A DNA stretch of 32,301 nucleotides, taken from assembly GCA_013812265.1 (NCBI GenBank), contig JACCTQ010000070.1, forward strand, positions 1 to 32,301, written 5' to 3'. Below the pieces are notes generated by a model. That model searched no databases and was not told where the DNA came from. It saw only the letters and a program-made list of their open reading frames with translations. Shown here one piece after another: positions 3,843-19,430 of this stretch; positions within the stretch are counted from its first letter, which is position 1, and every line of letters begins with the position of its first letter. The position numbers and the translations under genes are program-made. This stretch comes from Actinomycetota bacterium. GTDB lineage: Bacteria > Actinomycetota > Thermoleophilia > Gaiellales > Gaiellaceae.

Positions 3843-4844
<1,002 letters not shown>

Positions 4845-4869
4845 TCCGGGCTACCCTGAGCGGTGGGTC

Positions 4870-6498
4870 ATGTGGAATCGCCTACTGACAATCGGAGCCG
4901 CGTCGGCGCTCGTCCTCACGGCGGGAGCCCCTGCCTCGATGACGAGGGCCGCCGACGAGCCCGCCGTCGGGTCGGGCCCAACGTTCGTTTTCACGGGACG
5001 GGGCTGGGGACACGGCGTCGGCATGAGTCAGTACGGAGCGCTCGGCTTCGCCCGTCGCGGGACGCCGTACTCCCGGATCCTCTCCCACTATTACCCAGGC
5101 ACCGAGCTGTCACGTGCCTCGACGGCGCAGGTACGCGTGCTGCTGGCGGAAGGACGGTCCAGTGTGAAGCTTTCCTCGGCAGCCGCCTTCCGCGTCCGTG
5201 ATGCGAGCGCCAAGATCCATCGGCTGGACCCGGGCGAATACCAGCTCGGGCCGGGCCTGAAGCTGAAGGTGAAGGGGGCCCGGAAGGCGACTGCGCTTCC
5301 CGGGCCGTTGGCGTTTCTCCCCGGCGACATGCCCCTCCACTTTGGCCGGCCGTATCGTGGCTGGCTGCAGGTTGCCTCGAACGGGCGCAAGCTGAGTGTC
5401 GTCAACACCGTCGGCCTCGAGGCGTATCTGTACGGCGTCGTGCCCGACGAGGTGCCGGACACGTGGCCGGCCGAAGCGCTGAAGGCGCAGGCGGTGGCGG
5501 CGCGCTCCTATGCGATGGCGACCCGCAAGATCGGTGGCCCGTTCGATCTGTACGCCGATACCCGCAGCCAGGTGTACGGCGGCGTCGATGCCGAGAGCTT
5601 TCCGACCACCGCGGCGGTCGACGCCACCGCCGGCCGGGTGCTGAACTACCGTGGCCGCCCGGCGGTCACGTACTTCTTCTCCACCTCCGGCGGCCGGACG
5701 GCGGCCATCCAGGATGCCTGGCCGGGCGCGAGACCCGTTCCATATCTCGTCTCGGTCGCCGATCCGTACGACTCGCTGTCTCCACACCATCGCTGGGGGC
5801 CACTGTCGTTCTCCGCGAAGCCCTTGCTTCGGAGGCTGAAGGTCCCGGGCCAGCTACTCGACCTGAAGGCGACTCCCAACCCGTCCGGCAGGATTACTAG
5901 CGTGACCGCCGTGAGCACGCTGGGCTCCCTCAGCATTCCGGCCGGTGACGTCCGGCGCCTCCTCGACCTGCGCTCGACGTGGTTCCGGGTCGGCGTGCTG
6001 TCTCTCACCCGTCCGGCCGCACCGGCCGTGCACGGGTCGGCGGTCAGGGTCTCCGGTATCGCGCGCGGGCTTCCCGGCGTCACGCTCCAGCAGCGAGTCA
6101 GTGGTTCGGTATGGGAGCCGGCGAGCCGAATCAAGCCTGCGAGCGACGGAACCTTCTCGGTCTCGGTGAAGCCGCAAGCGGGGAGCGAATATCGGCTCGT
6201 GAGCGGCCGCACGTCCAGCGGGTCAGTCCGCGTTAGCGTCGCGCCGCTGGTCCGCTTCTTCCTGGCGAGAGACACCGGAATGCTGCGCGGAATGGTCAGG
6301 CCCATCCTGCCGGGCGCGATCGTGCAAATCCAGCAGCTGGCCGGGCCGACGTGGAAGACGGTGGAGCAACTCCCGGTGGACGCGAAGGGGAACTTCCAAC
6401 CCAAGCTGAAGCTTCCGGCAGGAACGTACCGGGCTCGTTTTGCTCCCGGCCGTGGACTTGCACCCGGCACTTCTCCTGTCCTGAAGGTGGTCGCTTGA
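4870..6498 (+). CDS. SpoIID/LytB-domain secreted protein
   Basis: In-frame ATG at 4870 (the longer ORF from 4513 overlaps rmlB); signal peptide; GRGWGHGVGMSQYGALGFARRG, LPDEVP/AEALKAQAVAARSYA and DTRSQVYGG SpoIID motifs. Confidence 0.9.
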   Translation: MWNRLLTIGAASALVLTAGAPASMTRAADEPAVGSGPTFVFTGRGWGHGVGMSQYGALGFARRGTPYSRILSHYYPGTELSRASTAQVRVLLAEGRSSVKLSSAAAFRVRDASAKIHRLDPGEYQLGPGLKLKVKGARKATALPGPLAFLPGDMPLHFGRPYRGWLQVASNGRKLSVVNTVGLEAYLYGVVPDEVPDTWPAEALKAQAVAARSYAMATRKIGGPFDLYADTRSQVYGGVDAESFPTTAAVDATAGRVLNYRGRPAVTYFFSTSGGRTAAIQDAWPGARPVPYLVSVADPYDSLSPHHRWGPLSFSAKPLLRRLKVPGQLLDLKATPNPSGRITSVTAVSTLGSLSIPAGDVRRLLDLRSTWFRVGVLSLTRPAAPAVHGSAVRVSGIARGLPGVTLQQRVSGSVWEPASRIKPASDGTFSVSVKPQAGSEYRLVSGRTSSGSVRVSVAPLVRFFLARDTGMLRGMVRPILPGAIVQIQQLAGPTWKTVEQLPVDAKGNFQPKLKLPAGTYRARFAPGRGLAPGTSPVLKVVA

Positions 6499-8147
6499 CG
6501 CGCCTGACGTTGGCTTTGCTGGCGCTGGTGCTGCTTGCGGCCGAACCGGGCCTGGCGGGGCGGCGCTTCGCTGTCGGCGTCGAGCCGGGCGCGCCACTGG
6601 GCAAGGTTGCCTCGCAGCTGGAAGCGGTGACGGGGCAGCCCGTCGAGGCTGACGCAGCCCTTCGCGCGATCTTCGTCGTGACGCGCTCGCCGCGGCAGCT
6701 CGCGGCCCTTCCGGGAGTTGCGTACGTCGAGTCCCTCACGGCGTCGCGCAGGCTCGCCTTCACACCCAACGACCCGCTGCTTCCGCGCCAGTGGTACCTG
6801 TTCCAGACGAGGGCGTTCAACTTCTGGCTGCAGCCGCCGAAGTTCTCCGGCCCGCCGGTGAAAGTCGCCGTGATCGACTCCGGCGTGGACGGTAAACACC
6901 CCGAGCTCGCGGGCAGGATCTCGGGGGCGAGGAGCTTCGTCGGCGGCTCCGCGCTTACCGACAGCAAGGGCCACGGAACCTTCGTCGCGGGTCAGATTGC
7001 GGCCGCGACGGGAAACGGGCAGGGGATCGCCGGCATGGCTTTCCCCGCACGCCTTCTCATCGCCAAGGTCGTACGACCGGATCTCTCCATCCCACTGGAG
7101 GCCGAGGCGCGGGCGATCCGGTGGGCCGTCGACCAAGGTGCGCGGGTGATCAACCTCAGCCTGTCGGGCGTTCGGCACCCGCAAAACCCGCGCAAGGACA
7201 CGTACTCGCCGCTCGAAGCGAGCGCGATCGCCTACGCCTACAAGAAGGGCGTGATGGTCGTCGCCGCCGTCGGGAACGGCGATGCCGCCCCGGAGAGTCC
7301 ATGGGAGTACGCCGGCTGGCCCGCGGCTCTCCCGCACGTCGTCTCGGTGAGCGCCTTCGGCCGGGACGGCTCGGTACCAGGGTTCTCGAACCGCGACGCC
7401 TTCTACAACGACATCTCCGCGCCCGGCGAGGAGATTTTCTCCACGCTGCCGCGCAATCTCACGAGCAAGCGGCCCAGCTGTGCGAACCAGGGGTACTCGG
7501 ACTGCGGCCCGGGCGAGTACCGCAATGCGGAGGGGACGTCGTTCGCAGCTCCTCAGGTCTCCGCGGCTGCCGCTCTGCTGTTGAGCCAGAAGCCAAGTCT
7601 CAAGGCCGACCAGCTCGCGAACGTGCTCACCCGCACAGCGGTCGACGCCACGCCGGTGAACGGCTGCCGCCTCTGCACCTCGGGACACGACGAGCTGACC
7701 GGGTGGGGCCGTCTCGACGTTCAGAACTCGCTCATGCAGACCTACTACTCTCCGCCGCCGGAGGCCGACCGCTACGAGACGAACGACGATGCCGGCTCGC
7801 AGGCGTGGAGGTTCTGGGGGTCGGCCCCCAGGAAGGTGAGCGCCACCCTCGACTTCTGGGACGACCAGATCGACGTCTACAGCATCAAGCTTGCGCCGGG
7901 CCAGAAGCTCACCGCCAGGGTGCGCGGGCCAATCGGGGCCGAGACGAAGCTCCTGCTCTGGAAACCGGGGACGAAGCGTGTCGAGGGCCTGGCCGTCCCC
8001 GCGGGCCGGGTAGCGCAGTCCACTCGCGTCGGGACGACGGAGTACATCCGCAGCTACAGCGCAAAGGCCGCTGGCTGGTACTACCTCCAGGTCAAGCTCG
8101 TCGAGCCCGGCTGGGGCTCCTACACCCTCGACTACGCCAAGCAATAA
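6495..8147 (+). CDS. S8 family serine peptidase (subtilisin-like), secreted
   Basis: VAVIDSGVDGKHPELAG (Asp), GHGTFVAGQIAA (His), GTSFAAPQVSAAAALLL (Ser); TTG start overlapping the upstream stop (TTGA); signal peptide. Confidence 0.92.
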   Translation: MTRLTLALLALVLLAAEPGLAGRRFAVGVEPGAPLGKVASQLEAVTGQPVEADAALRAIFVVTRSPRQLAALPGVAYVESLTASRRLAFTPNDPLLPRQWYLFQTRAFNFWLQPPKFSGPPVKVAVIDSGVDGKHPELAGRISGARSFVGGSALTDSKGHGTFVAGQIAAATGNGQGIAGMAFPARLLIAKVVRPDLSIPLEAEARAIRWAVDQGARVINLSLSGVRHPQNPRKDTYSPLEASAIAYAYKKGVMVVAAVGNGDAAPESPWEYAGWPAALPHVVSVSAFGRDGSVPGFSNRDAFYNDISAPGEEIFSTLPRNLTSKRPSCANQGYSDCGPGEYRNAEGTSFAAPQVSAAAALLLSQKPSLKADQLANVLTRTAVDATPVNGCRLCTSGHDELTGWGRLDVQNSLMQTYYSPPPEADRYETNDDAGSQAWRFWGSAPRKVSATLDFWDDQIDVYSIKLAPGQKLTARVRGPIGAETKLLLWKPGTKRVEGLAVPAGRVAQSTRVGTTEYIRSYSAKAAGWYYLQVKLVEPGWGSYTLDYAKQ

Positions 8148-8148
8148 A

Positions 8149-8171
8149 CGGGGGAACCCGTGGTTCCCCCG
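8149..8171 (+). terminator. hairpin terminator candidate after the S8 peptidase gene
   Basis: cgggggaacc-cgt-ggttcccccg, 10-bp perfect stem with 3-nt loop, right after the TAA stop; no U-tract. Confidence 0.6.
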
Positions 8172-8271
8172 CTGGCCCCTCCTTCACGCTGCCATCCATC
8201 TGCGCTGGTTTGGCCTCCCGCCGGGCGGAGCCCGGCTCCGGCGGCGGCTCGCAGCGGCAGGCGACTGACGA

Positions 8272-8424
8272 GGGTCAGGTCTTGCGTTGCAACACTGGTT
8301 TCTTGTAGCGAGCTGCCTGGTGGTCACGGCTAACTCGCACCCGATCCTGCTCGACCGGCCCCGATTCAGCAGTTTCTGGCGCGGCTGGCCGGAGCCTTTG
8401 CTGTTGCGCTGCAAGACCTGACCC
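8272..8424. repeat. 153-bp segment bounded by 23-bp imperfect inverted repeats (20/23)
   Basis: gggtcaggtcttgcgttgcaaca (8272-8294) versus tgttgcgctgcaagacctgaccc (8402-8424). Confidence 0.65.
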
Positions 8425-8434
8425 CCACTGTCGC

Positions 8435-9115
8435 CTACTGGCTCTCGAGCAGCTCGTCCTCCGGGACGTCGCGAATGTGCCGGGCAGGGTTCCCCACCAC
8501 CACTGCTCGCGGCTGGACGTCGTGAACCACGACGGCGCCGGCGCCGACGAACGCCTCCTCACCGATCTCGACGCCGGGGCACAGAATCGCGCCGCCGCCA
8601 ATGCGCGCTCCCCGTCGTATCGTCGGGCCCTTGATCAAGCTGCGCCGCCGCTCGGTCCGGCCCATGAAGTTGTCGTTCGTCGTCGCCACGCAGGGAGCGA
8701 TGAAGACGTTGTCCTCCAGTGTCGAGTACGCGGTTATGTAGGCGTGCGCCTGGATCTTTGTCAGCGCCCCGATCGTGGTGTCGTTCTCCACCAGCGACCC
8801 GCGCCCGATCACGACATCGTCCTCGATCACGCAGCGCTCACGGATACACGCCTGATCGCCCACGATGACGCGCGCACCGATCCTCGTCCCGGCGAAGACG
8901 ATCGCTCCCGTCGAGACGATCGTGCCCGGCCCGAGCTCGAGCGGCGGAAGCGGCTCTCGCTTCGCGGTGGAGCGAGGGGAAAGCGACGGCTGCTTTCCCA
9001 GCACGACGTTGTCCGCGATGGTGCAACCCTCTCCGATCACCGTCCCGGGATAAACGACAACGTTCTGCCCGAGCTCGTAAGGCGGAGAGGCCGCTGGCGT
9101 CCGCCTCCCGGTCAC
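8435..9115 (-). CDS. left-handed beta-helix acyl/acetyltransferase (WbpD/WlbB-like)
   Basis: Hexapeptide repeats (VVYPGTVIGEGCTIADNVVLG, GGGAILCPGVEIGEEAFVGAGAVV); GTG start at 9115 overlapping the stop of the upstream oxidoreductase gene. Confidence 0.88.
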   Translation of the reverse strand: MTGRRTPAASPPYELGQNVVVYPGTVIGEGCTIADNVVLGKQPSLSPRSTAKREPLPPLELGPGTIVSTGAIVFAGTRIGARVIVGDQACIRERCVIEDDVVIGRGSLVENDTTIGALTKIQAHAYITAYSTLEDNVFIAPCVATTNDNFMGRTERRRSLIKGPTIRRGARIGGGAILCPGVEIGEEAFVGAGAVVVHDVQPRAVVVGNPARHIRDVPEDELLESQ

Positions 9116-10089
9116 GCGGCAGCGCGCTCGAGTGACGCCTGCAGTTGTTCCAGCGCTCGCACCACTGCGACGCCGTCGCGTGCCGCCGCGAGGGGATCGC
9201 CCTCCCCGGCCGCAAGGGCCAGGAAGTGTCGGCACTCGAGACGAAGCGGCTCGTCGTTCGAGATCTTCGGAATGAAGATGTCCCCGGTGCGCGTGCGCCA
9301 CTCCCCGTAGCTCTCGGGCGGCTTCTCCGTACCCTTGTCGTAGACCGTCACCTTTCGTTCCAGTTCCATGTCGTCGAAAACCGCCATCTTGTCCCGCCCG
9401 ACCACAGTCATCTTGCGCATCTTGTGCGGATCGAGCCAGGAGAGGTGCATGTGCGCGACGATCCCGGAGGGAAAACGGAGATAGCAGAACACGACGTCCT
9501 CGACCCCTTCACGCACGAACGACTCGCCGCGTGCCCAGATCTCGCTCGGCTCTTCCTCGACCAGGTGCAGGATGACCGAGAGATCGTGAACACCGAGCGA
9601 CCACAAGGCGTTCTCGTCCTTGCGGATCTGGCCGAGGTTTTGCCGGTTGCCATAGAGGTACAGGACGTCGCCGAGCTGTCCGGAAGCGATCAGCTCCTTG
9701 AGCTTCTTGACGCCCGGGTGGTAGAGGAGCAGGTGGCCCGGCATAAGCGCGACGCCCCGCTCCTCCGCGACGCCCAGGAGGTCCTCCGCCTCCGCTGCAG
9801 TGAGCGCGGGAGGCTTCTCCACGAAGGTGTGCTTGCCAGCTTCCAGGGCTCGGCGAGCCAGCTCGTAGTGGGTGACGACGGGAGTCGCGACCACGACCGC
9901 GTCGAGCTCCGGATCCGCGAGCATCTCGTCGAAATCGCCCGTCATGCGTACCCGCGGATACCGCGCCGCGAACCGGTCGCGCAGCTCGGGCGAGATGTCG
10001 CAGAGCCAGCGGAGATCGGCGAGATCGTCGAAGTTCCGGGCGAGGTTCGGCCCCCAGTAGCCGAGACCGGCAAGACCGATTCGAATCAT
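9112..10089 (-). CDS. Gfo/Idh/MocA family oxidoreductase
   Basis: IRIGLAGLGYWGPNLARNF; FVEKPPALTAAEAEDL; Rossmann N-terminus. Confidence 0.92.
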   Translation of the reverse strand: MIRIGLAGLGYWGPNLARNFDDLADLRWLCDISPELRDRFAARYPRVRMTGDFDEMLADPELDAVVVATPVVTHYELARRALEAGKHTFVEKPPALTAAEAEDLLGVAEERGVALMPGHLLLYHPGVKKLKELIASGQLGDVLYLYGNRQNLGQIRKDENALWSLGVHDLSVILHLVEEEPSEIWARGESFVREGVEDVVFCYLRFPSGIVAHMHLSWLDPHKMRKMTVVGRDKMAVFDDMELERKVTVYDKGTEKPPESYGEWRTRTGDIFIPKISNDEPLRLECRHFLALAAGEGDPLAAARDGVAVVRALEQLQASLERAAA

Positions 10090-11150
10090 CGCGGGCTAGC
10101 GTACAGAGCGGCCGCGATGCGCTCCGCGGCATGGCCGTCGCCGTAGAGGGCCGGGCGGTCCAGCGGCATCCGAGCTCGCGTGACGGCATCCACGATCCGG
10201 TCCGGGTCAGCGTCCACGAGCTGGTTGGCGCCTGCCTCCACCGTGTCGACCCACTCCGTCGATGGCCGCATCGTGACGCAGGGGACGCCGTACCAGTACG
10301 CCTCCTTCTGGAGGCCCCCCGAGTCGGTGGCGATGACGCGCGCCTGCGATGCGAGCGCCGCGAAATCGAGGTATCCGAGTGGTCGGACGACCTGGACGTG
10401 GGGCGCGGCGGTCAGGCCGCCGGTCTCAAGGGCGGCCCGGGTGCGTGGGTGGGCCGGGAAAACGACCGGTTCTGCCAGGCGGTTCAGGCCGTCCATGATG
10501 CGCGCGAGCCGAGACGCTCGGACGTTGGCCTCTCGGTGCACGGTTGCGATGACGTACCGGCCGGGCTGCAGGGTGAGGGCGTCGAGGATCCTGGAACGCC
10601 GGCGCGCGAGCGGGGCCAGGCGGAAGCACGCGTCGGCCATGACGTCGCCGACGACCTGCCGGTCGCCCCGGACCTCTTCCCGGGCAAGCGTCGTGCTGGA
10701 GCGCTCGTCAGGGCAGAGGAGGAGATCGGAGATGGCGTCCACCTCTATCCGGTTGTGCTCCTCCGGCATCGAGAGGTCGCCGCTGCGAAGGCCGGCCTCC
10801 ACATGGGCGAGGGCAACGCCGACCGCGCTCGCAGCCCGCGCGCCCGCGAGCGTCGAGTTCGTGTCACCGTAGACGAGCGTCCAGTCGGGCCTTTCCTCGG
10901 CCAGAGCGGCCCCAATCGCAGGCTGCATGCGGGCGAGCATCTCGTCGCGTGGCAGCGCAGAGATTCCGAGTCGGTACCGAGGCTCGCCGAGGCCCAGCTC
11001 GTCGAAGAAGACCTGCGACAGCTCGGGGTCGTAGTGCTGACCCGTGTGCAGCACCACCTCCTCGATGCCCTCAGCGCGGAGCGCCACCGAGAGGGGGGCC
11101 GACTTGACGAACTGGGGCCGGTTCCCGACCACGGAAAACACCTTCACCAC
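10086..11150 (-). CDS. wecB: UDP-N-acetylglucosamine 2-epimerase (non-hydrolysing)
   Basis: VFSVVGNRPQFVKSAPLS; HTGQHYDPELSQVFF; VYGDTNSTLAGA; HVEAGLRSGDLSMPEEHNRI; TDSGGLQKEAYWYGVPCVTMR. Confidence 0.93.
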   Translation of the reverse strand: MVKVFSVVGNRPQFVKSAPLSVALRAEGIEEVVLHTGQHYDPELSQVFFDELGLGEPRYRLGISALPRDEMLARMQPAIGAALAEERPDWTLVYGDTNSTLAGARAASAVGVALAHVEAGLRSGDLSMPEEHNRIEVDAISDLLLCPDERSSTTLAREEVRGDRQVVGDVMADACFRLAPLARRRSRILDALTLQPGRYVIATVHREANVRASRLARIMDGLNRLAEPVVFPAHPRTRAALETGGLTAAPHVQVVRPLGYLDFAALASQARVIATDSGGLQKEAYWYGVPCVTMRPSTEWVDTVEAGANQLVDADPDRIVDAVTRARMPLDRPALYGDGHAAERIAAALYASPR

Positions 11151-11171
11151 GGCTACACTACGCAGCCGCCC

Positions 11172-11244
11172 GGGCCGTTAGCTCAGCTGGTAGAGCAGGG
11201 GACTCTTAATCCCAAGGTCGAAGGTTCGAGTCCTTCACGGCCCA
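11172..11244 (+). tRNA. tRNA-Lys (anticodon CTT)
   Basis: gggccgt acceptor pairs with acggccc; anticodon loop actcttaat; T-arm ggttcgagtcc; discriminator A at 11244. Confidence 0.95.
11201..11244 (+). repeat. attL core (44-bp direct repeat within tRNA-Lys)
   Basis: gactcttaatcccaaggtcgaaggttcgagtccttcacggccca, identical to 19387-19430. Confidence 0.93.
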
Positions 11245-11305
11245 TAGCCGAAGCTCCTGGAAACAGGCACTTTCGCTCTTCCGGCTCCGTCCTCTCTGCC
11301 GAGCA

Positions 11306-11325
11306 GGTCAAACAAACGGTCAAAC
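11306..11325 (+). promoter_or_regulatory. putative integrase arm-type sites, left end
   Basis: GGTCAAAC at 11306-11313 and 11318-11325 (12-bp period), matching a pair of identical period at the right end. Confidence 0.6.
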
Positions 11326-11365
11326 ACTCCTCTCTCGTCCGGCGCTCCAGGCACGCTGAGGCGTT

Positions 11366-11782
11366 GTGAACCGCAACGGCACACCCGCGAGCCTCGTGCC
11401 TGCACCGGCAGGCAACGTCCGCGCGGCACGGCACGGCATCTACTCGGAGCGACTTCGCGAGCCACGTGCGCAGGAGCACTTCGACGCGATCCTCGACCTT
11501 CCATGGATCGGAGAGGCCGACATCATCGGCGCGAGGCAGGTGGCACGGCTGGAAGCCTTGATCGAGGCACTCTCGGACGAGGTGTTCCGGGTCGGCGTCG
11601 GCTCGAAGAAGGCAGAAAAGCTGATCGACATGGAGCTACGTGCGATCAGACGGCAGGCGGAGCTACTGAGCCGCTTCGGACTGGACCCGAAGTCGCGAGC
11701 GGACTGGACTGCGAAGCTGACCAGCGGCACGCTCGGCGAGCGCATCGCCGCTCGCATCGCCGAGATCGAGGCCAACGAGTGA
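11366..11782 (+). CDS. phage-related protein, possibly small-terminase-like
   Basis: GNVRAARHGIYSERL N-terminus and LIDMELRAIRRQAELLSRFGLDPKSRADW resemble small-terminase-type phage proteins; first ORF of the element. Family assignment is from memory. Confidence 0.5.
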   Translation: MNRNGTPASLVPAPAGNVRAARHGIYSERLREPRAQEHFDAILDLPWIGEADIIGARQVARLEALIEALSDEVFRVGVGSKKAEKLIDMELRAIRRQAELLSRFGLDPKSRADWTAKLTSGTLGERIAARIAEIEANE

Positions 11783-12375
11783 GCCATGCGAAGCGACGTG
11801 CTGCGCTGGAGGAGATCGCATACAGCGCGGACGCCAGTCCGGCCGATCGGATGCGAGCGCTGGAGGCTCTCCGCGAGTACCAGGGTGTCGAGCCGAATCC
11901 GGCCTTGGTGGAAACCAGCGACCAAGAGCTCTTCGACACGATGGACGACGAGCTGAGCAGCGACCTCCTCGACATCATCGCCTCCGTCCTCGACGGCCGA
12001 GATATCTCCGGGTCCGTTGCCGAGACCACCTGGAACGGCTGGCCACGCACGGTGGAGAACATCGCCTCGGAGATCAATCGCCGGGTGACCCTCGCCGTCG
12101 AAGAGCACACCGATGTTGCTCGCGTCGAGCTGGAGATCGAGCAGAGAGCGCAGGAAAAAGCGGAGCACCTCTATAGGACACGTTCATTCAGCGCCGTAAG
12201 CCCTTCTGACGGCCTGGAAGGCGATCAGGAAGGTGAACAGCCCACCTCGGTACCTGGCGAGCTTAAATCGCCTCCTACGCTCCCGCCGGGTATCGACCTT
12301 GAACGCGGGTGGCCGAAGCCGCGAGGGCGGAATCCAAACACACGACGGCTCGGAGATCGACGCCGAAGTTGGTAA
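11779..12375 (+). CDS. hypothetical element-encoded protein
   Basis: GTG at 11779 overlapping the upstream TGA (GTGA); in-frame portion of ORF 11503-12375. Confidence 0.6.
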   Translation: MSHAKRRAALEEIAYSADASPADRMRALEALREYQGVEPNPALVETSDQELFDTMDDELSSDLLDIIASVLDGRDISGSVAETTWNGWPRTVENIASEINRRVTLAVEEHTDVARVELEIEQRAQEKAEHLYRTRSFSAVSPSDGLEGDQEGEQPTSVPGELKSPPTLPPGIDLERGWPKPRGRNPNTRRLGDRRRSW

Positions 12376-12384
12376 CAACTTCGG
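12363..12384 (+). terminator. strong hairpin containing the stop codon of the upstream ORF
   Basis: ccgaagttg-gtaa-caacttcgg, 9-bp perfect stem with GUAA tetraloop; TAA stop at 12373-12375 in the loop. Confidence 0.5.
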
Positions 12385-12444
12385 GGTAGGGCCGCCAGCA
12401 GCCGCACCCCAGGACTCCTTGAAAGCCCTGCAAATAGCGGGTCG

Positions 12445-12502
12445 CAGCCCCCGGGGCTCCCCTCCCTCAGCCCCCGGGGCTCCCCTCCCTCAGCCCCCGG
12501 GG
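12445..12502. repeat. 23-bp GC-rich tandem repeat, about 2.5 copies
   Basis: cagcccccggggctcccctccct at 12445-12467 and 12468-12490, partial copy 12491-12502. Confidence 0.85.
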
Positions 12503-12856
12503 CCGCGCCCTTCGGGAAAGCCCTGCAAATGCCAGCCCCGCGCGAGTAGCACGAAGAAGGTTCCGGTAGTTTTGTTCCGGGCCCGGACGCTCCGTTCGGC
12601 GGGAACGGCCTCGAAGTTGTCTGCGGCGCTGGCGACCCGACGGGAACAAAGACTCCATCCGGCCCACCGGCTACCTTAGCGCCGAACAAATCAGTTCCGC
12701 AATTCGTGCCCTGCGCCTGGCAGCGCGGGCGGAAGCGAAACTGGGCAGCCTCGCCAAAGGGTATGCCCGGCTGATTCCCTACACGTATAAGCGGACGTTA
12801 ACCGCCCATGCCCCCCATCGGGGGGTGGGGCGACGCGTTCGGAAGGGGGAATCAGC

Positions 12857-14029
12857 ATGCAACATCTGGACGAAGTCCTGGATCGCATTTCGAGCGATCT
12901 AGCTCGCCTGGACAACAAGAGCAGCGGTGCCGACGAATGGCGCTCAGGCAGCCGCTACGTCGGCCCTAACGCTGAGCGTTCACTCGTGGAGCACGTGGCG
13001 GCCGGAGGGTCGGTAGGCCGAACCGTAAAGCCGTATCGACCCGCAGGCAGCCGCACGAAAGGCGGCCTCGCCTTCGGAATGAAGGCGCTCGCCGAAGGCA
13101 CCGCCACAAGCGGTGGATATCTGGTCGAGCCGGAATTCGCCGCGGAGATCGCTCACCTCGTGCGTGCTCGGTCGGCCGTAATGCAGATGGGTGTGACCAC
13201 GATTCCTGTCCGCAAGGAACTGAACGTGACCTCGGTCTCAACGGGTGCCACTGCGGCCTACGTCGCGGAGAACGCTCGCATCCCGGTCAGTGAGGAGACC
13301 TTCGCACAAGCGGCCATCCTCCGGCCTCGGAACCTGGCGGCGCTGGTTCCCATCTCGAACCGCTTGCTCCGTGATGCGGACGAGACCCCAGCCGTCGAAG
13401 ATGTGATTCGTCGCGACCTGGCGGAAGTGCTCGCGCTGAGGCAGGACATCGCGTTCCTTCAAGGCACCGGAACGGGCGAGGAACCCCTCGGGCTCCGCAA
13501 CGTCGCCGGGACGACCGCTGCACCTTCCCTGGGCGCGAATGGCGGCGCTCCTGACTGGGACACGCTCAAAACCACGGTGGCCAACATCCGTGCCACGAAC
13601 GCACCCTTCGAGCGGCCCGGCTGGATTTTCAACGCGCGCCTTCTGAGCACGTTGGAGCGCTTGAAGGACTCGACGGGTCACTATCTCGCCGATACCGGAT
13701 TGCTCACCTTCGATCCGGCCGGGAACGGGGGCACGCTGCTCGGATACAGCTTCCGAACCACAAGTCAAATTCCGGTCAACCTGACGACCGGCACGAGCAC
13801 GGATACGACGTTCGCCCTCTTCTGCTCGGACTGGGGTGAGGTCTGGGTAGGGCAGAACGACGCCTTCGAGATCGTCCTGTCCGGCGAGGCGACCTACACG
13901 CCCGACGGAGGTACCACCTACATCAGCGCATTCCAGAATCAGCAAACGTTGTTCCGCGCATCCACGACTAATGACATCGCGATCCGCCGTCCGCAGTTCC
14001 TGAGCGTCCTTACGGGAGTCCGACCGTGA
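12857..14029 (+). CDS. HK97-family phage major capsid protein
   Basis: ATSGGYLVEPEFAAEI, NLAALVPISNRLLRDADETPAVEDVIRRDLAEVLALRQDIAFLQGTGTGEEPLGLRN, WIFNARLLSTLERLKDSTGHYL, TLLGYSFRTTSQIP; SD-like aagggggaatcagc upstream. Confidence 0.95.
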   Translation: MQHLDEVLDRISSDLARLDNKSSGADEWRSGSRYVGPNAERSLVEHVAAGGSVGRTVKPYRPAGSRTKGGLAFGMKALAEGTATSGGYLVEPEFAAEIAHLVRARSAVMQMGVTTIPVRKELNVTSVSTGATAAYVAENARIPVSEETFAQAAILRPRNLAALVPISNRLLRDADETPAVEDVIRRDLAEVLALRQDIAFLQGTGTGEEPLGLRNVAGTTAAPSLGANGGAPDWDTLKTTVANIRATNAPFERPGWIFNARLLSTLERLKDSTGHYLADTGLLTFDPAGNGGTLLGYSFRTTSQIPVNLTTGTSTDTTFALFCSDWGEVWVGQNDAFEIVLSGEATYTPDGGTTYISAFQNQQTLFRASTTNDIAIRRPQFLSVLTGVRP

Positions 14030-14352
14030 CCGAGGCCGAGAGCGTCGCGAAGGGTTCCAAGCCGCTCACCGGCCAGCTCGCCGCAGCCGTCGAGGAGGTC
14101 GTGCTCGCCGTCCAGCGGACGAACAGTGGCGCAACGAGGTACGAACTGCTCGACGACAGAAGCGTGCTCGAAATCTCGGTCCCGGAGCCTGGCTCCAAGC
14201 TTCGGCTAATCCCGAGGCGCTCGCTCGTGTCGAACGAGCCGGGTCACCTTGCCGGTGGCCCAGCTCCCACCTTGAGTGAAGAGCAACAACGGCGGCTGCT
14301 AGAGGCCAAGGCGCGGAAGTCGTTTGGTCCGATGCCTTCGGAAACGGCCTGA
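14026..14352 (+). CDS. hypothetical element-encoded protein
   Basis: GTGA overlap with the capsid gene stop; acidic/hydrophilic 108 aa. Confidence 0.6.
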   Translation: MTEAESVAKGSKPLTGQLAAAVEEVVLAVQRTNSGATRYELLDDRSVLEISVPEPGSKLRLIPRRSLVSNEPGHLAGGPAPTLSEEQQRRLLEAKARKSFGPMPSETA

Positions 14353-14361
14353 CCACGACCG

Positions 14362-15033
14362 TTGAACCGGGAGGAGCGAGAGCGTCTTAAGCGCGCCGTA
14401 GACCGCGCCCGTCGGCAGCGGCAGGGCTACGCAAGCGAGGTGGCGCCTGGCGCGATCAACTTCGTCCTGGCGAACGTGGAGGACACGTGGAGGACGCTGG
14501 ACGAGGTGCGGCGAGCCTGCCGTCTTGATCCTCAGCGCGTCGCTTCGGCGCTCGGGCTCTTGTGGGCGCGCGGGCAGGTCGAGTGCGAGCTGGTCAATGG
14601 AGAGGACCTCTACCGTGTGCCCGCGGTGGCAGCGGAGGCACAATCCCGACGGTGTCGGGAGTGCGATTCCGCCATTCCGAGCACGATGCGCTCCGATAGC
14701 GTCTTCTGCTCCAGGCGCTGTAATTCCCGGATGCAGACAAGGCGTGCTAGAGCACGCCACCATAAAACTCAACCCGTGCGAGCCTGCGAGTATTGCTCGA
14801 CGCTATTCCAGCCGCTGACTCCGCGACGGCGATTCTGCGGCTCTACGTGCGCCAACGCCGCTAAGAACAGGCGTCCTGGCATCCATCACTTGATCTGCGC
14901 TCATTGCAGGATCGAGTTTCAGTCTCGCAAAACAGGGCAGCTTTACTGCTCGCGCGCCTGCCTGGCCGCGGTCAATCGCGAGAGAAATTCTGACTTCGGA
15001 AGCGTGAGTAGGTGGACCGGTGCTAGACCATGA
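14362..15033 (+). CDS. winged-helix-like plus triple C4 zinc-module protein
   Basis: N-terminal TWRTLDEVRRACRLDPQRVASALGLLWARGQVEC; then CRECx14CSRRC, CEYCx13CGSTC, CAHCx13CSRAC. Confidence 0.75.
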   Translation: MNREERERLKRAVDRARRQRQGYASEVAPGAINFVLANVEDTWRTLDEVRRACRLDPQRVASALGLLWARGQVECELVNGEDLYRVPAVAAEAQSRRCRECDSAIPSTMRSDSVFCSRRCNSRMQTRRARARHHKTQPVRACEYCSTLFQPLTPRRRFCGSTCANAAKNRRPGIHHLICAHCRIEFQSRKTGQLYCSRACLAAVNRERNSDFGSVSRWTGARP

Positions 15034-15436
15034 GATGCGCCTAGCGCTCCGTCAGGAGATCGACAGGCGCAGACGGCTACAACGACCTTGCTCGTATTGT
15101 GGGTTGGCATTAACGCCGTCGAAGCGGAGTCACCGATACTGCTCGGAGGAGTGCAAGCGCCGGAGCAACAATGCTCGGCGCCAAGCGCGCGGACAGGCAA
15201 TTGACTTTCAGGTAAGCGCTTGCGGCTGGTGCGACAGCCGATTCGTACCGAGTAGGCGCGACCAGCGGCATTGTTCGTCAGCATGCTGGCGCTCGTCCGA
15301 CCATCGCTCGAAACACCCTCTCCCGAGGCGCCGCGCCTGCCGAACGTGTGGTCAGCGATTCCAGCCGAAGCGGAAGGACGGTCGCTATTGCAGCGCTCAA
15401 TGCCACAAGCATCGCGACCGGCGTTTGCACGGCTAG
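15020..15436 (+). CDS. triple C4 zinc-module protein
   Basis: CSYCx13CSEEC, CGWCx13CSSAC, CRTCx13CSAQC; overlaps the upstream gene by 14 nt. Confidence 0.75.
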   Translation: MLDHEMRLALRQEIDRRRRLQRPCSYCGLALTPSKRSHRYCSEECKRRSNNARRQARGQAIDFQVSACGWCDSRFVPSRRDQRHCSSACWRSSDHRSKHPLPRRRACRTCGQRFQPKRKDGRYCSAQCHKHRDRRLHG

Positions 15437-15464
15437 ATCGGCTGGCCGCCAGCCGATCTAGTTG
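15430..15464 (+). terminator. hairpin overlapping the stop codon of the second zinc-module gene
   Basis: ctagatcggctgg-ccg-ccagccgatctag, 13-bp perfect stem (15433-15445/15449-15461) extendable by two G-U pairs and one C-G pair; TAG stop at 15434-15436 lies in the stem. Confidence 0.65.
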
Positions 15465-15690
15465 GCTCACTGGCGCAGGGCGATCCCGTAGCGGGCGAGG
15501 CCATGGAGAGCGCCGTCATGTCGGTTGTGTAGAGTGTTTTTCGTCTGCTCCCGCGCCTTCGTCTGCGCGTGAGTCTTCACCGCACATCCCTTCGGAAGCC
15601 TGGCCTACGGTCAGGCTTTCGTGGTTCTGAAGGTGACCTCCGACACCACCCGTAGACTGATTCGTGGATGCGGTCGAAGACTGAGCAGCG

Positions 15691-16038
15691 ATGGAACGTG
15701 CGCAACGCGTAGCGGTCTCAACGGAGCCGTTCGCTCTGGCGCTCAGCCTCACTCTTGAGCGAAGCCAAACGGAGCTGCGGGATCAATTCCGTGACGCCGT
15801 GGTGTCGCCGCACCATGCAGCGACGCGAGCTTTCACCCTCGCAATGAGCCTTCGCCGTAGGCCGGTTTTGGCGAGGTGTTTGCCCCGCTTTGCCTCCCGA
15901 GCGCGGCCTCCAAGAGCGCCGCGAGCACGACGCCGGACGCGACGCACGGCTCGTCGAGCGCCACCCGGCGACCCTGACGACCCTGACGAACCTGGCGACC
16001 CTGACTTAAGCCATACCAGCGCAGGACGGCGCGCGTGA
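15691..16038 (+). CDS. hypothetical basic protein with DPD-repeat tail (uncertain)
   Basis: ORF whose stop overlaps the next start (GTGA), as in the other gene junctions of the element; composition is otherwise low-complexity. Confidence 0.35.
   Translation: MERAQRVAVSTEPFALALSLTLERSQTELRDQFRDAVVSPHHAATRAFTLAMSLRRRPVLARCLPRFASRARPPRAPRARRRTRRTARRAPPGDPDDPDEPGDPDLSHTSAGRRA
15969..16004. repeat. four tandem 9-bp repeats (cgaccctga)
   Basis: cgaccctga/cgaccctga/cgaacctgg/cgaccctga directly upstream of the replication-like gene. Confidence 0.8.
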
Positions 16039-16736
16039 AGCGCCGCCTGCGCTACTCGTCGTTCACGGCGATCCCGGACCGCGCGGACGTGTTACTGCGC
16101 GCGGGTCGGCACTCCGATTACGCGATCCTCGCCGTGCTGTACAGGCGCCAGAATTTCGACACCCTGACGGCGTCGGCCAGCCTCGATCAGCTCGCGGAGT
16201 GGGTCGGGTGGACGAGGCGGCTCGACTCACTCTCTAAACGCCTGCGCAAGCTCCGGGACGAAGGCTGGCTCGGCTACGACACCGCGACTGCGCAGCGGAC
16301 GCGCCGTTACGTGTTCCATCTCGTTCCCGAGCAGTCCGAGTCGGGTCCGAACGGTTTTGCTCGGATCGGTCCGAACGAGACCGACTCCGAAGGCCGCAGT
16401 ACAAGCGGGAATCAGGCCTCCGTCAGCTCGGACACGTCCGAACACGAAAGCGCACCCGAGCCGCACGTAGGTCCGAACGAGCGTCCAGACGGTCCGAACG
16501 GCGAGTCCTCCGCAAGCTCGCTTCTGGAGCAGGATTCCGCCGTTTCCCCGCCTGGCAACGTCCGAACGCCTCAGAGGATCAGAGTAAACCTTCTGGGTAA
16601 GGAGAACAAAAGAACTACGTCTTGGTTTGTGGAGGACGACCACGATGTAGGTGAAGGGACTGACGAGGCCGAGCTAGAGCGGCTGCTTGAGGAAACGATC
16701 ACAGGACCGCCGACGGGGACAGAGGTGGACGGGTGA
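16035..16736 (+). CDS. putative replication initiator (N-terminal winged helix, disordered repeat linker)
   Basis: FDTLTASASLDQLAEWVGWTRRLDSLSKRLRKLRDEGWLGYDTATAQRTRRYVFHL is wHTH-like; S/P/G/N-rich linker with GPNG/GPNE repeats; GTGA start overlap. Confidence 0.55.
   Translation: MKRRLRYSSFTAIPDRADVLLRAGRHSDYAILAVLYRRQNFDTLTASASLDQLAEWVGWTRRLDSLSKRLRKLRDEGWLGYDTATAQRTRRYVFHLVPEQSESGPNGFARIGPNETDSEGRSTSGNQASVSSDTSEHESAPEPHVGPNERPDGPNGESSASSLLEQDSAVSPPGNVRTPQRIRVNLLGKENKRTTSWFVEDDHDVGEGTDEAELERLLEETITGPPTGTEVDG
16344..16568 (+). repeat. iteron-like repeats GGTCCGAACG inside the putative rep gene (candidate ori)
   Basis: Exact copies at 16344, 16368, 16470, 16491; one-mismatch copy CGTCCGAACG at 16559; degenerate CGTCCGAACA at 16435. 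Confidence 0.6.
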
Positions 16737-16960
16737 TGAGCGACCGGCGTCCGATCATCCGTCGAGGCGAGGCTGTCGGCGTCGCGAACATCATCCGCCG
16801 CCTCGGGCAACTGGAGAGACAGGCCGCCGACCTCGGCGACGAGCTGGAGGTAAACGAGCGCGAGTACCAGACGCTTCGCGAGCGCCTCCATGAGGTGGTC
16901 AGCGAGCGCGAGCGACTGCGGCGCAAGCTGACCCTGCTTCACTCTGAGGAGCAAGCGTGA
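16733..16960 (+). CDS. small coiled-coil protein
   Basis: GTGA overlap; heptad-like LGQLERQAADLGDELEVNEREYQTLRERLHEVVSERERLRRKL. Confidence 0.6.
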   Translation: MMSDRRPIIRRGEAVGVANIIRRLGQLERQAADLGDELEVNEREYQTLRERLHEVVSERERLRRKLTLLHSEEQA

Positions 16961-17316
16961 GCTTCAGACACGATCGGCCACCGGAGCTTCGACATCGACC
17001 TCTCTCGCTCTCCAGCGCGCTCGATGTTCTGGTACAGCTCGCACGAGACGAAGGACGGGACGACTTCGCGGCCTGGCTCGCGAGCCTCCCAGCGAACGAC
17101 GCGGCGAGAGTGCAGCTCAGCACGCTCACGCCGGTTGGCGCACAACGTCCGTTCCCCAGCGAGGGGACGCGCGAGCTTGTCAGGAACTTCGGCAGGCCGG
17201 ACTTCACAGGCGGCTATCGCCTTCTGCTCGACGTGCTCGTAAGCGAAGAGATCGCGGCGGCGACAGAGGTGGAGGCACCTCGCCTGCTCCCGCGCCTGGA
17301 GGAGGAGGACGAGTGA
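16957..17316 (+). CDS. hypothetical element-encoded protein
   Basis: GTGA overlaps on both sides; 119 aa. Confidence 0.6.
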   Translation: MSFRHDRPPELRHRPLSLSSALDVLVQLARDEGRDDFAAWLASLPANDAARVQLSTLTPVGAQRPFPSEGTRELVRNFGRPDFTGGYRLLLDVLVSEEIAAATEVEAPRLLPRLEEEDE

Positions 17317-17603
17317 GCGACCTCCTCCTCCAGCTTCCGGACCACGCGCTGGAGGAGATCGCCTCGCGAGCAGCGGAGATCGTGCTGGAGCGGCTGGAGC
17401 GACCGGAGGAGCCATCGCCGTACCTCACCGTCTCCGAGGCAGCCGACTACCTGCGGACTTCACGACAGGCCGTGGACGATCTCCTCCGGCGCGGAAAGCT
17501 CACTCGCCACAAGCGCGGCGACGGTCGCAACGGACGCGTACTCGTGCTCCGTCACGAGGTAGAGGGGCAGGTGCGAACACCACAACAACAGGAGGAGCCA
17601 TGA
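17313..17603 (+). CDS. excisionase-family helix-turn-helix DNA-binding protein
   Basis: PYLTVSEAADYLRTSRQAVDDLLRRGKLTRHKRGDGRNGRVLVLRHEVE, typical excisionase/MerR-like HTH. Confidence 0.85.
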   Translation: MSDLLLQLPDHALEEIASRAAEIVLERLERPEEPSPYLTVSEAADYLRTSRQAVDDLLRRGKLTRHKRGDGRNGRVLVLRHEVEGQVRTPQQQEEP

Positions 17604-17932
17604 ACGATGCTGAGGCGGTCAAGATCATCCGAACTGAGCTGCGCCGCAGGAGCGGCAAGGCCTGGAGCGTGACGCAGAGCAGGCGGAGTAGCTACATCCA
17701 GGTGACTTCGCCGCCGAGGCGACGTGTGCTAAAGGCGCTGAGCGAGGCTGATCGAGTCGAGCTTGCAAGCTTGCTCGGGTTAGACCGCGTGGCGACCTTC
17801 GGCGTCTTCATCGACCACTGCGAGCGTGCGGAGTATGTCGAGCGTGCTCGCGGCGCTTACGAAGGGTCAAAAACGGGTGCCTCGCATTCCGTGTCCTCGA
17901 CCGCCGCGACCTCGACCTCGACCTCGACGTAA
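17600..17932 (+). CDS. hypothetical protein, mobile-element associated
   Basis: ATGA overlap; VKIIRTELRRRSGKAWSVTQSRRSSYIQVTSPPRRR pattern; C-terminal (TS)n tail from a hexanucleotide repeat. Confidence 0.6.
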   Translation: MNDAEAVKIIRTELRRRSGKAWSVTQSRRSSYIQVTSPPRRRVLKALSEADRVELASLLGLDRVATFGVFIDHCERAEYVERARGAYEGSKTGASHSVSSTAATSTSTST

Positions 17933-18125
17933 CAGGCTTCACGGTGTTTGACCTCTGTTTGATCGTGCGCCGCAATCCATGGAGCCATGCGACCTCCCGG
18001 CCGAGCAGGCAATAGAGCATCGCCGGGTCGGAGCAAGTATGATCGAGGTGACAAGAGGCCGAGCAGCGCTCACGGGATGCCACCCGCTCGCGCTCCCGGC
18101 CGTGGCACGGAAGGAGTAAACTTCC

Positions 18126-19340
18126 ATGCAAGATCAGGATAGAACGACGGCTCGCCTGGACCGCAAGCCGAAGCGCACGAAGGTGCCGAGCGTGTACGCC
18201 GTCGGCAACCGCTTCAAAGTCGTGGTTCGCAACGGCGACAAGCAGGTCACGGAGTACGTCGGCACGCTCAGCGAGGCACGGAAGCGGAAGGCGGCTCTCT
18301 CGACGGCCGTGGCCGAAGGCGAGTACCACGCCGAGGCGAGGCTCACGTTACAGGCCTACTTCGACCTCTGGCGCACGGTCTACAAAGGCCGATCCCGCAA
18401 GCGCATCCGGCCAGAGACGTTGAACGAATACGTCCGAGACCTAGAGCTACACGTCCTGCCGACGCTGGGAGGCAGGAAGCTGCGCACGATCCGTCCCATG
18501 CACATCCGCAAGCTCGCCTCGGACCTGGAGGCGAAGGGTCTCTCGCCTGGCACCGTCCGCCTCGCCGTAGCGCCGTTGCGAGCGCTCTTCGCTACGGCCG
18601 TCGAGGACGACCTGCTCCGCTCGAATCCGTGTACTGGCGTGAAGCTCTCTCAGCAAGTCGAGCAGGCAGACGACGAAGACGAGCACGCGACGAAGGCACT
18701 CACGGAGGAGGAGCTTCGCGAGCTTCTGGCGCAGGTCCCAGCCGACCACCGTCTGTTCGTGGAGTTCCTGGCTCACTGCGGCCTGCGGATCAGCGAAGGC
18801 ATCGCCGTGCGTTGGGGAGACATCGCGTGGGGTGACCCGCCTCGCTTGAAGGTGCGGCGCCGCATCTACAAAAACCAGGTGGCTCCTCCGAAGTCGGACT
18901 ACGGCAAGCGCACGATCAAGCTCTCACCCGGCATGGCGAGGCAGCTATGGGAGCTGCGCAAGGCGAACCGGCCGCAGGACGACGAGTACGTCTTCACGAC
19001 CAGTAACGGAAGCGTCCTCGACCCGTCCAACCTGGCCGCTCGCGTCTTCAAGCCTGCCGCTCGACGTGCAGGCGTGCCGTGGGCCGGGTTCCACTCGCTT
19101 CGGCACACCGCTGGGACGATCCGGTTCCGCAACGGCTGGAACGCGAAGCAGGTGCAGCTCTTCCTTGGACACCATGATCCGGCGTTCACCTTGCGGGTCT
19201 ACGTCCATCTCCTGCCGGACGATCAACCGGACTGCGGCTGGTTGGACGAGCTAACGAGCGGTCAAACAAAAGGTCAAACCGAACGGCGCGAGACGGAGCA
19301 GGACGCCGAAACGGTCGAACAGGCGGTTTCGCTCGCTTAG
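18126..19340 (+). CDS. int: tyrosine recombinase/integrase
   Basis: LAHCGLRISEGIAVRWGDI (Arg I), HSLRHTAGT (HxxR), LFLGHHDPAFTLRVYVHLLPDD (Tyr). Confidence 0.96.
   Translation: MQDQDRTTARLDRKPKRTKVPSVYAVGNRFKVVVRNGDKQVTEYVGTLSEARKRKAALSTAVAEGEYHAEARLTLQAYFDLWRTVYKGRSRKRIRPETLNEYVRDLELHVLPTLGGRKLRTIRPMHIRKLASDLEAKGLSPGTVRLAVAPLRALFATAVEDDLLRSNPCTGVKLSQQVEQADDEDEHATKALTEEELRELLAQVPADHRLFVEFLAHCGLRISEGIAVRWGDIAWGDPPRLKVRRRIYKNQVAPPKSDYGKRTIKLSPGMARQLWELRKANRPQDDEYVFTTSNGSVLDPSNLAARVFKPAARRAGVPWAGFHSLRHTAGTIRFRNGWNAKQVQLFLGHHDPAFTLRVYVHLLPDDQPDCGWLDELTSGQTKGQTERRETEQDAETVEQAVSLA
19260..19279 (+). promoter_or_regulatory. putative integrase arm-type sites, right end (inside int 3' end)
   Basis: GGTCAAAC at 19260-19267 and 19272-19279, same 12-bp period as at 11306. 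Confidence 0.6.
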
Positions 19341-19386
19341 CAGGGAAAGGTCCCGACGGAGCAGGGCGGAGCGGGACGCCGTTTCC

Positions 19387-19430
19387 GACTCTTAATCCCA
19401 AGGTCGAAGGTTCGAGTCCTTCACGGCCCA
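19387..19430 (+). repeat. attR core (44-bp direct repeat of tRNA-Lys 3' half)
   Basis: Identical to 11201-11244. Confidence 0.93.

Follow-up and report, generated by a model that had tools for sequence, protein, structure and literature searches.

Can an integrated element that encodes a capsid shell protein, with no portal, terminase motor, or tail gene recognizable beside it, be a working parasite of phages, or is it what a phage left behind? This question is raised by an 8.2-kb element in a tRNA-Lys gene of an Actinomycetota bacterium (Thermoleophilia, Gaiellaceae; assembly GCA_013812265.1, contig JACCTQ010000070.1, positions 1 to 32,301 of the forward strand). The whole of this 32,301-nucleotide stretch is referred to here as the window. 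A preliminary description made from the sequence letters had proposed a minimal capsid-carrying phage satellite with a sharp attachment (att) boundary. Our analysis supports that proposal: the element lies between repeats that match at 44 of 44 positions, encodes one HK97-type major capsid protein (MCP), and has equally minimal sisters. We consider it likely that the element is an integrated phage satellite that depends on a helper and represents a minimal "MCP + TerS" type (TerS, small terminase). It is probably a phage parasite and not a broken phage, because relatives with the same gene set occupy tRNA genes of distant hosts.

The boundaries of the element are directly established. The 44-bp repeat copies the 3′ end of a tRNA-Lys(CTT) gene at a spacing of 8,186 bp (Table 1), and an exact 44-mer at such a spacing cannot be chance. 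All functional genes of the island lie on the forward strand, in the order open reading frame 1 (ORF1), ORF2, a 481-bp gap, the MCP gene, ORF4, two genes for zinc-binding proteins, a winged-helix gene, small ORFs with an excisionase-type helix-turn-helix (HTH) gene, and the integrase gene; the genes are open. The wecB-tRNA-Lys pair is kept in 22 of 29 loci of relatives from the same family. In four of these relatives (G016, G084, G075, and G086), cytochrome oxidase genes whose counterparts lie at 29 to 32 kb in the window are found ~1.2 to 6 kb after tRNA-Lys, and no island genes were found after the tRNA at these four loci. Because the tRNA-to-cytochrome oxidase gap is smaller than the 8.2-kb island and the island genes are missing, the attachment site (attB) is empty in these relatives. 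Relative to the empty-site genomes, the window holds the element plus further chromosomal genes at the tRNA-Lys site. At a separate locus (L138, G025:C13, 186-3564), the same attB is followed 3.3 kb downstream by a second copy of the tRNA-Lys 3′ end, which suggests another integration there.

At the level of sequence, the identity of the capsid gene as an intact HK97-type MCP gene is unmistakable. Besides the family matches in Table 1, the protein matches the PHROG major head family (3e-40), covers nearly the full model length of the NCBIfam equivalog TIGR01554, and by profile matches the solved capsid structures of the Rhodobacter gene-transfer agent and HK97. Protein identity to INPHARED phages does not exceed 34%. 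The nearest IMG/VR capsids, which come from ordinary tailed phages, are 39 to 44% identical to the MCP clade of the element; a portal gene adjoins the MCP gene in three of the five nearest IMG/VR contigs, and by eye the nearest IMG/VR MCPs have a long N-terminal extension resembling a protease fusion. A phylum-wide MCP search (E <= 1e-45, 397 genomes) returned no additional member. The excisionase-like HTH and the tyrosine integrase named alongside the MCP in the preliminary description also match their families (Table 1). That description had recognized no gene for a portal, a large terminase (TerL), a prohead protease, a tail, or lysis and had allowed that some might be hidden among the hypothetical genes. 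None of these families was detected in any element ORF scanned against Pfam, PHROGs, and NCBIfam.

MCP searches recovered relatives of the same type as the element in four genomes (G305, G364, G056, and G122). In the closed genome G305, the integrase, MCP, ORF2, and ORF1 genes lie inside 45-bp repeats spaced 8,619 bp apart; each repeat copy corresponds to the 3′ portion of a tRNA-Gly-like gene whose intact form lies outside the stretch examined. In G364, also closed, the same cassette lies in tRNA-Cys, inside 44-bp repeats spaced 9,529 bp apart. The TerS-ORF2-MCP order is common to the window, G305, and G364, and this recurrence in separately integrated sisters of 8.6 and 9.5 kb was directly observed, as expected of a conserved 7- to 10-kb element in tRNA genes. 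G056 has a tRNA-Gly gene followed by ORF1 (39% identity), ORF2 (33%), and an MCP gene interrupted by the contig end. The MCP of G122 is 57 to 58% identical, and its neighbors are a tyrosine integrase and an apparent recombinase fragment; this locus is a probable remnant. In a 49-row MCP tree, the window and these four relatives form a clade with 100/100 support, and none of its five members bears a portal or TerL gene. Decayed family copies also occur in G085 and beside a tRNA-Asn gene in G058 (L210, G058:C170, 7285-7860).

The earlier suggestion of a possible small-terminase-like gene gains support from the relatives of ORF1. Its counterparts in three sisters give weak matches to Terminase_6 (1e-4 to 6e-3) or Terminase_4, and a distant homologue in G137 matches Terminase_4 above the cutoff (1.1e-7), with a TerL gene (5e-15) directly downstream. 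ORF1 homologues likewise precede TerL in G356 and G024. The weak fold matches of ORF1 are enriched in TerS; a weak resemblance to ribosomal protein S15 was read as a generic helical hairpin. No relative of ORF1 was recovered from IMG/VR. ORF2 is conserved in the complete sister elements, its disordered tail ending in a PP..W motif in the alignment, and the top three hits of a viral fold search were TerS proteins over its N terminus (E, 0.05 to 0.13). The AlphaFold models were of low confidence (mean pLDDT, 68 and 61) and every fold match had E > 0.04, so that these matches count as support only. ORF2 profile matches were restricted to family members, and among the loci then scanned, full-strength matches to the ORF1 and ORF2 profiles occurred solely in the window's group. 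ORF2 might serve as an adaptor or scaffold in partnership with ORF1 or with the MCP.

A census of Thermoleophilia (MCP threshold, E <= 1e-8) placed the element in a wider setting of 55 MCP loci across 44 of 399 genomes. A PF04860 portal gene lies within ~10 kb of 13 of these loci, and a home-made profile found TerL at five further ones. Fifteen loci are inside exact 34- to 50-bp repeats, which in nearly all cases can be recognized as a tRNA 3′ half, and neither a portal nor a TerL match occurs between the repeats. Island lengths cluster: 11 lie at 8.2 to 9.7 kb (8,186, 8,608, 8,619, 9,102, 9,116, 9,287, 9,492, 9,529, 9,639, 9,664, and 9,691 bp) and three at 13.9 to 14.5 kb (13,922, 14,374, and 14,487 bp); one further island, of 4,987 bp, has a truncated MCP gene. 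The repeat search could see spacings of 4 to 19 kb and misses larger elements, but this range alone does not create the clustering. A prohead protease was found in two islands, L078 and L092 (L058, L077, L080, and L089 were only partly scanned for it); L092 (G356, 14.4 kb), with an NlpC/P60 protein as well, is a fuller element. Curated TerS genes accompany the MCP in L025, L058, L078, and L087. The islands are scattered in the MCP tree, where well-supported branches force at least six label changes, which indicates that MCP islands arose, or exchanged capsids, on more than one occasion.

Several loci have features of their own. L060 (G055) has a 50-bp repeat flanking its MCP gene, but by eye the interval looks like chromosomal DNA and was excluded from the count. 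L058 (G143:C3, 5806-15342), an MCP and TerS island with 44% G+C in 61% G+C surroundings, looks like a recent distant import. Three successive tRNA 3′-half copies in L023 (5722-15434) suggest that islands accumulated in tandem at a single tRNA gene. A 10.5-kb tRNA-Gly island (L215, G024:C4:58000-77000, 4270-14814) with 44-bp att repeats, an integrase, TerS, and TerL gave no MCP or portal match and is a packaging-only counterpart to the MCP-only islands. Consecutive integrase, primase-polymerase, excisionase-like, TerS, and TerL genes in L213 (G137:C139, 2929-11337), again with no MCP or portal match, likely form another packaging-only element.

If the element were a deletion remnant of a full prophage, retaining its MCP, TerS, and integration genes by accident, it would have company in the decayed family copies of G058 (ORF1 with an internal stop), G085 (ORF1 plus integrase), and G122 (MCP plus integrase), and the closest phage MCPs are indeed those of ordinary tailed phages. 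However, the same minimal set recurs in two host families (three counting the G122 remnant), in different tRNA genes and within intact att repeats, the element ORFs are open, and the MCP clade contains no portal-bearing member. Independent decay would not yield one cassette repeatedly, and we therefore regard this origin as very improbable. A full prophage at the same site, which the preliminary description had raised as a possible ancestor, finds no counterpart among the relatives, which are minimal and separately integrated. We give similarly little credence to a defense or interference island in which the MCP is a dominant-negative subunit that spoils the capsids of infecting phages and the element itself is never packaged. 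G122 keeps its MCP with almost no other gene, packaging genes are few, and the host offers no recognizable HK97-type helper, all of which would suit a decoy; yet TerS, needless for a decoy, is conserved in the cassette, excision and replication genes are retained, and PADLOC detected no defense family among nine element ORFs scanned. Unlikely, too, is a satellite that builds no small heads from its MCP and travels as concatemers in full-size or mixed helper heads, with the MCP only biasing packaging. Phage-inducible chromosomal minimalist islands (PICMIs) package concatemers into full-size heads (PMC10803314), but they lack a capsid gene, whereas every complete sister of the element keeps its MCP and the islands group around lengths of 9 kb and 14 kb.

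Against the helper-dependent satellite that we favor stand several observations. Neither an excised circle nor a virion nor a helper was observed. By its own sequence, ORF1 falls below the threshold for TerS. The remaining MCP loci of the census are contig-end cuts or unresolved, leaving ~20 of 55 unclassified. In G122, ORF1 and ORF2 were not found by profile beside the open MCP gene, so that the MCP may have a packaging-independent role. Finally, no HK97-type helper is recognizable in the host metagenome-assembled genome (MAG; 2.63 Mb, 98.6% complete, a single MCP), because genome-wide searches found no PF04860 portal, PF03354 TerL, or PF04586 protease. A different type of TerL (PF03237, 3.9e-12) does occur in the MAG, on a contig of 6.2 kb, where genes judged by eye to be TerS-like and ParB-like adjoin it; this stretch (L217, G000:C29, 1116-4200) is possibly a helper or a second prophage fragment.

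As a satellite, the element would enter its cycle upon infection by, or induction of, a helper phage. Xis and Int would cut an 8.2-kb circle out of tRNA-Lys, and the O-like protein would initiate replication. ORF1, perhaps with ORF2, would then direct the helper TerL onto satellite DNA, and the satellite MCP would form, or join, procapsids to be completed with a portal, maturation protease, TerL, and tail of helper origin. We infer induction, excision, packaging, transfer, capsid size, and helper mobilization. The preliminary description had the element remodel a helper's capsid, which we find less likely than its own MCP being supplied to capsids finished by helper proteins. The replication module it proposed stands insofar as ORF7 matches PHROG 678, but the call is weak. 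A tentative and rather doubtful extension is that "MCP + TerS" elements form a recurrently evolved class in Thermoleophilia, in which the satellite's own MCP sets small heads, producing the two length steps (8.2 to 9.7 and 13.9 to 14.5 kb), and helper portal, protease, TerL, and tail are captured on the satellite shell. Scaling from HK97 at equal DNA density gives 11.1 kb for T=3 and 17.1 kb for T=4; speculatively, and provided that DNA is packed as densely as in HK97, the 14 lengths in the two steps could correspond to these two head sizes.

The element has the genetic layout of a satellite, being discrete and integrated, with integrase, excisionase, and weakly called replication genes and an incomplete virion set. 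Canonical phage-inducible chromosomal islands (PICIs), including the Staphylococcus aureus pathogenicity islands (SaPIs), likewise have an integrase, an excisionase, and a replication gene, and some have their own TerS; they redirect the helper MCP through scaffold-type factors and are not known to carry an MCP. Their mechanisms are reviewed in PMC10690885. phiRv1 and phiRv2 carry a protease, whereas none was found in the element. The closest described kind is the Mycobacterium "candidate PICIs," regions with an integrase and an MCP that include phiRv1/2-like elements; some lie in tRNA genes with a tyrosine integrase, some have terminase and replication genes, and helper dependence is presumed (PMC10654092). 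The tyrosine integrase, earlier taken to set the element apart, is therefore no distinguishing trait. The element, too, has an integration gene and an MCP gene in one region, and it is a host-distant variant that differs in host class, in its conserved TerS-ORF2-MCP cassette, and in an ORF2 of no known family. Capsid-forming PICIs (cf-PICIs) encode portal, protease, connectors, TerL, TerS, and HNH, making their own capsids and borrowing tails (PMC10690885). The element shares with them an MCP of its own, but the lack of portal, protease, and TerL in our scans excludes it from this group. The Streptomyces phage satellites MulchRoom and MiniFlayer resemble it in their actinomycete setting and capsid genes, and MulchRoom in its tyrosine integrase; they also carry TerL, portal, and scaffold genes and have no obvious replicase (PMC10690885). 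PICMIs, similarly very small with an integration and replication core, integrate beside fis and have no capsid remodeling or packaging gene (PMC10803314), in contrast to the MCP and TerS-like genes of the element, which place it outside that group. In a literature search that left out most subscription papers, no account of such elements from Thermoleophilia came up.

The remaining features are listed in Table 1. The ORF7 counterpart in L024 matches HTH_36 (1e-7) and PHROG 678 (3e-5), and the integrase retains the catalytic motifs LRISE, HSLRHT, and LGHHD..Y. In the gap ahead of the MCP gene, the CAGCCCCCGGGGC units and two AAAGCCCTGCAAAT copies are located at 12396-12530; a packaging-site role for them was dropped because the repeats are not conserved in sisters. 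A near copy of AAAGCCCTGCAAAT lies immediately right of attR.

Table 1. Features of the element and its integration site (window coordinates)
Feature	Position	Strand	Evidence
tRNA-Lys(CTT), intact; 3′ half is attL	11172..11244	+	ARAGORN
attL, 44-bp repeat	11201..11244	+	44/44 match to 19387-19430
ORF1, TerS-like, opens conserved cassette	11366..11782	+	Terminase_4 E=0.01; sister and distant homologue matches
ORF2, TerS-like N-terminal helical hairpin, long helix, disordered tail	11779..12375	+	Alignment; AlphaFold; fold search
Intergenic stretch, 481 bp, with recurring CAGCCCCCGGGGC and with AAAGCCCTGCAAAT present twice	12376..12856	+	Sequence not conserved in sisters
HK97-type MCP, 390 aa	12857..14029	+	PF05065 1.4e-40; TIGR01554 1.2e-39
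ORF4, 108 aa, no family match, overlaps MCP stop codon	14026..14352	+	Pfam, PHROGs, PADLOC, NCBIfam scans
ORF5, multi zinc-binding protein, accessory	14362..15033	+	PHROG 1271 4.6e-12
ORF6, multi zinc-binding protein, accessory	15020..15436	+	PHROG 1333 4.6e-15
ORF7, O-like/winged-helix replication initiator (weak)	16035..16736	+	PHROG 678 E=0.002
ORF8, coiled-coil type	16733..16960	+	
ORF9, no match in Pfam, PHROGs, NCBIfam	16957..17316	+	
ORF10, excisionase-type HTH	17313..17603	+	HTH_17 3.7e-8; PHROG 66 3e-7; TIGR01764 3.5e-7
ORF11, no assigned family	17600..17932	+	
Tyrosine integrase, catalytic motifs present	18126..19340	+	PF00589 1.6e-19
attR, 44-bp repeat	19387..19430	+	44/44 match to attL

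Known satellites either reshape the shell of their helper or carry a near-complete head module. A shell protein and a packaging selector alone raise the question of what a minimal satellite needs, and of how a foreign MCP accepts the portal and protease of another phage. The family lives in little-studied actinobacteria, and several examples in closed genomes are now open to testing.

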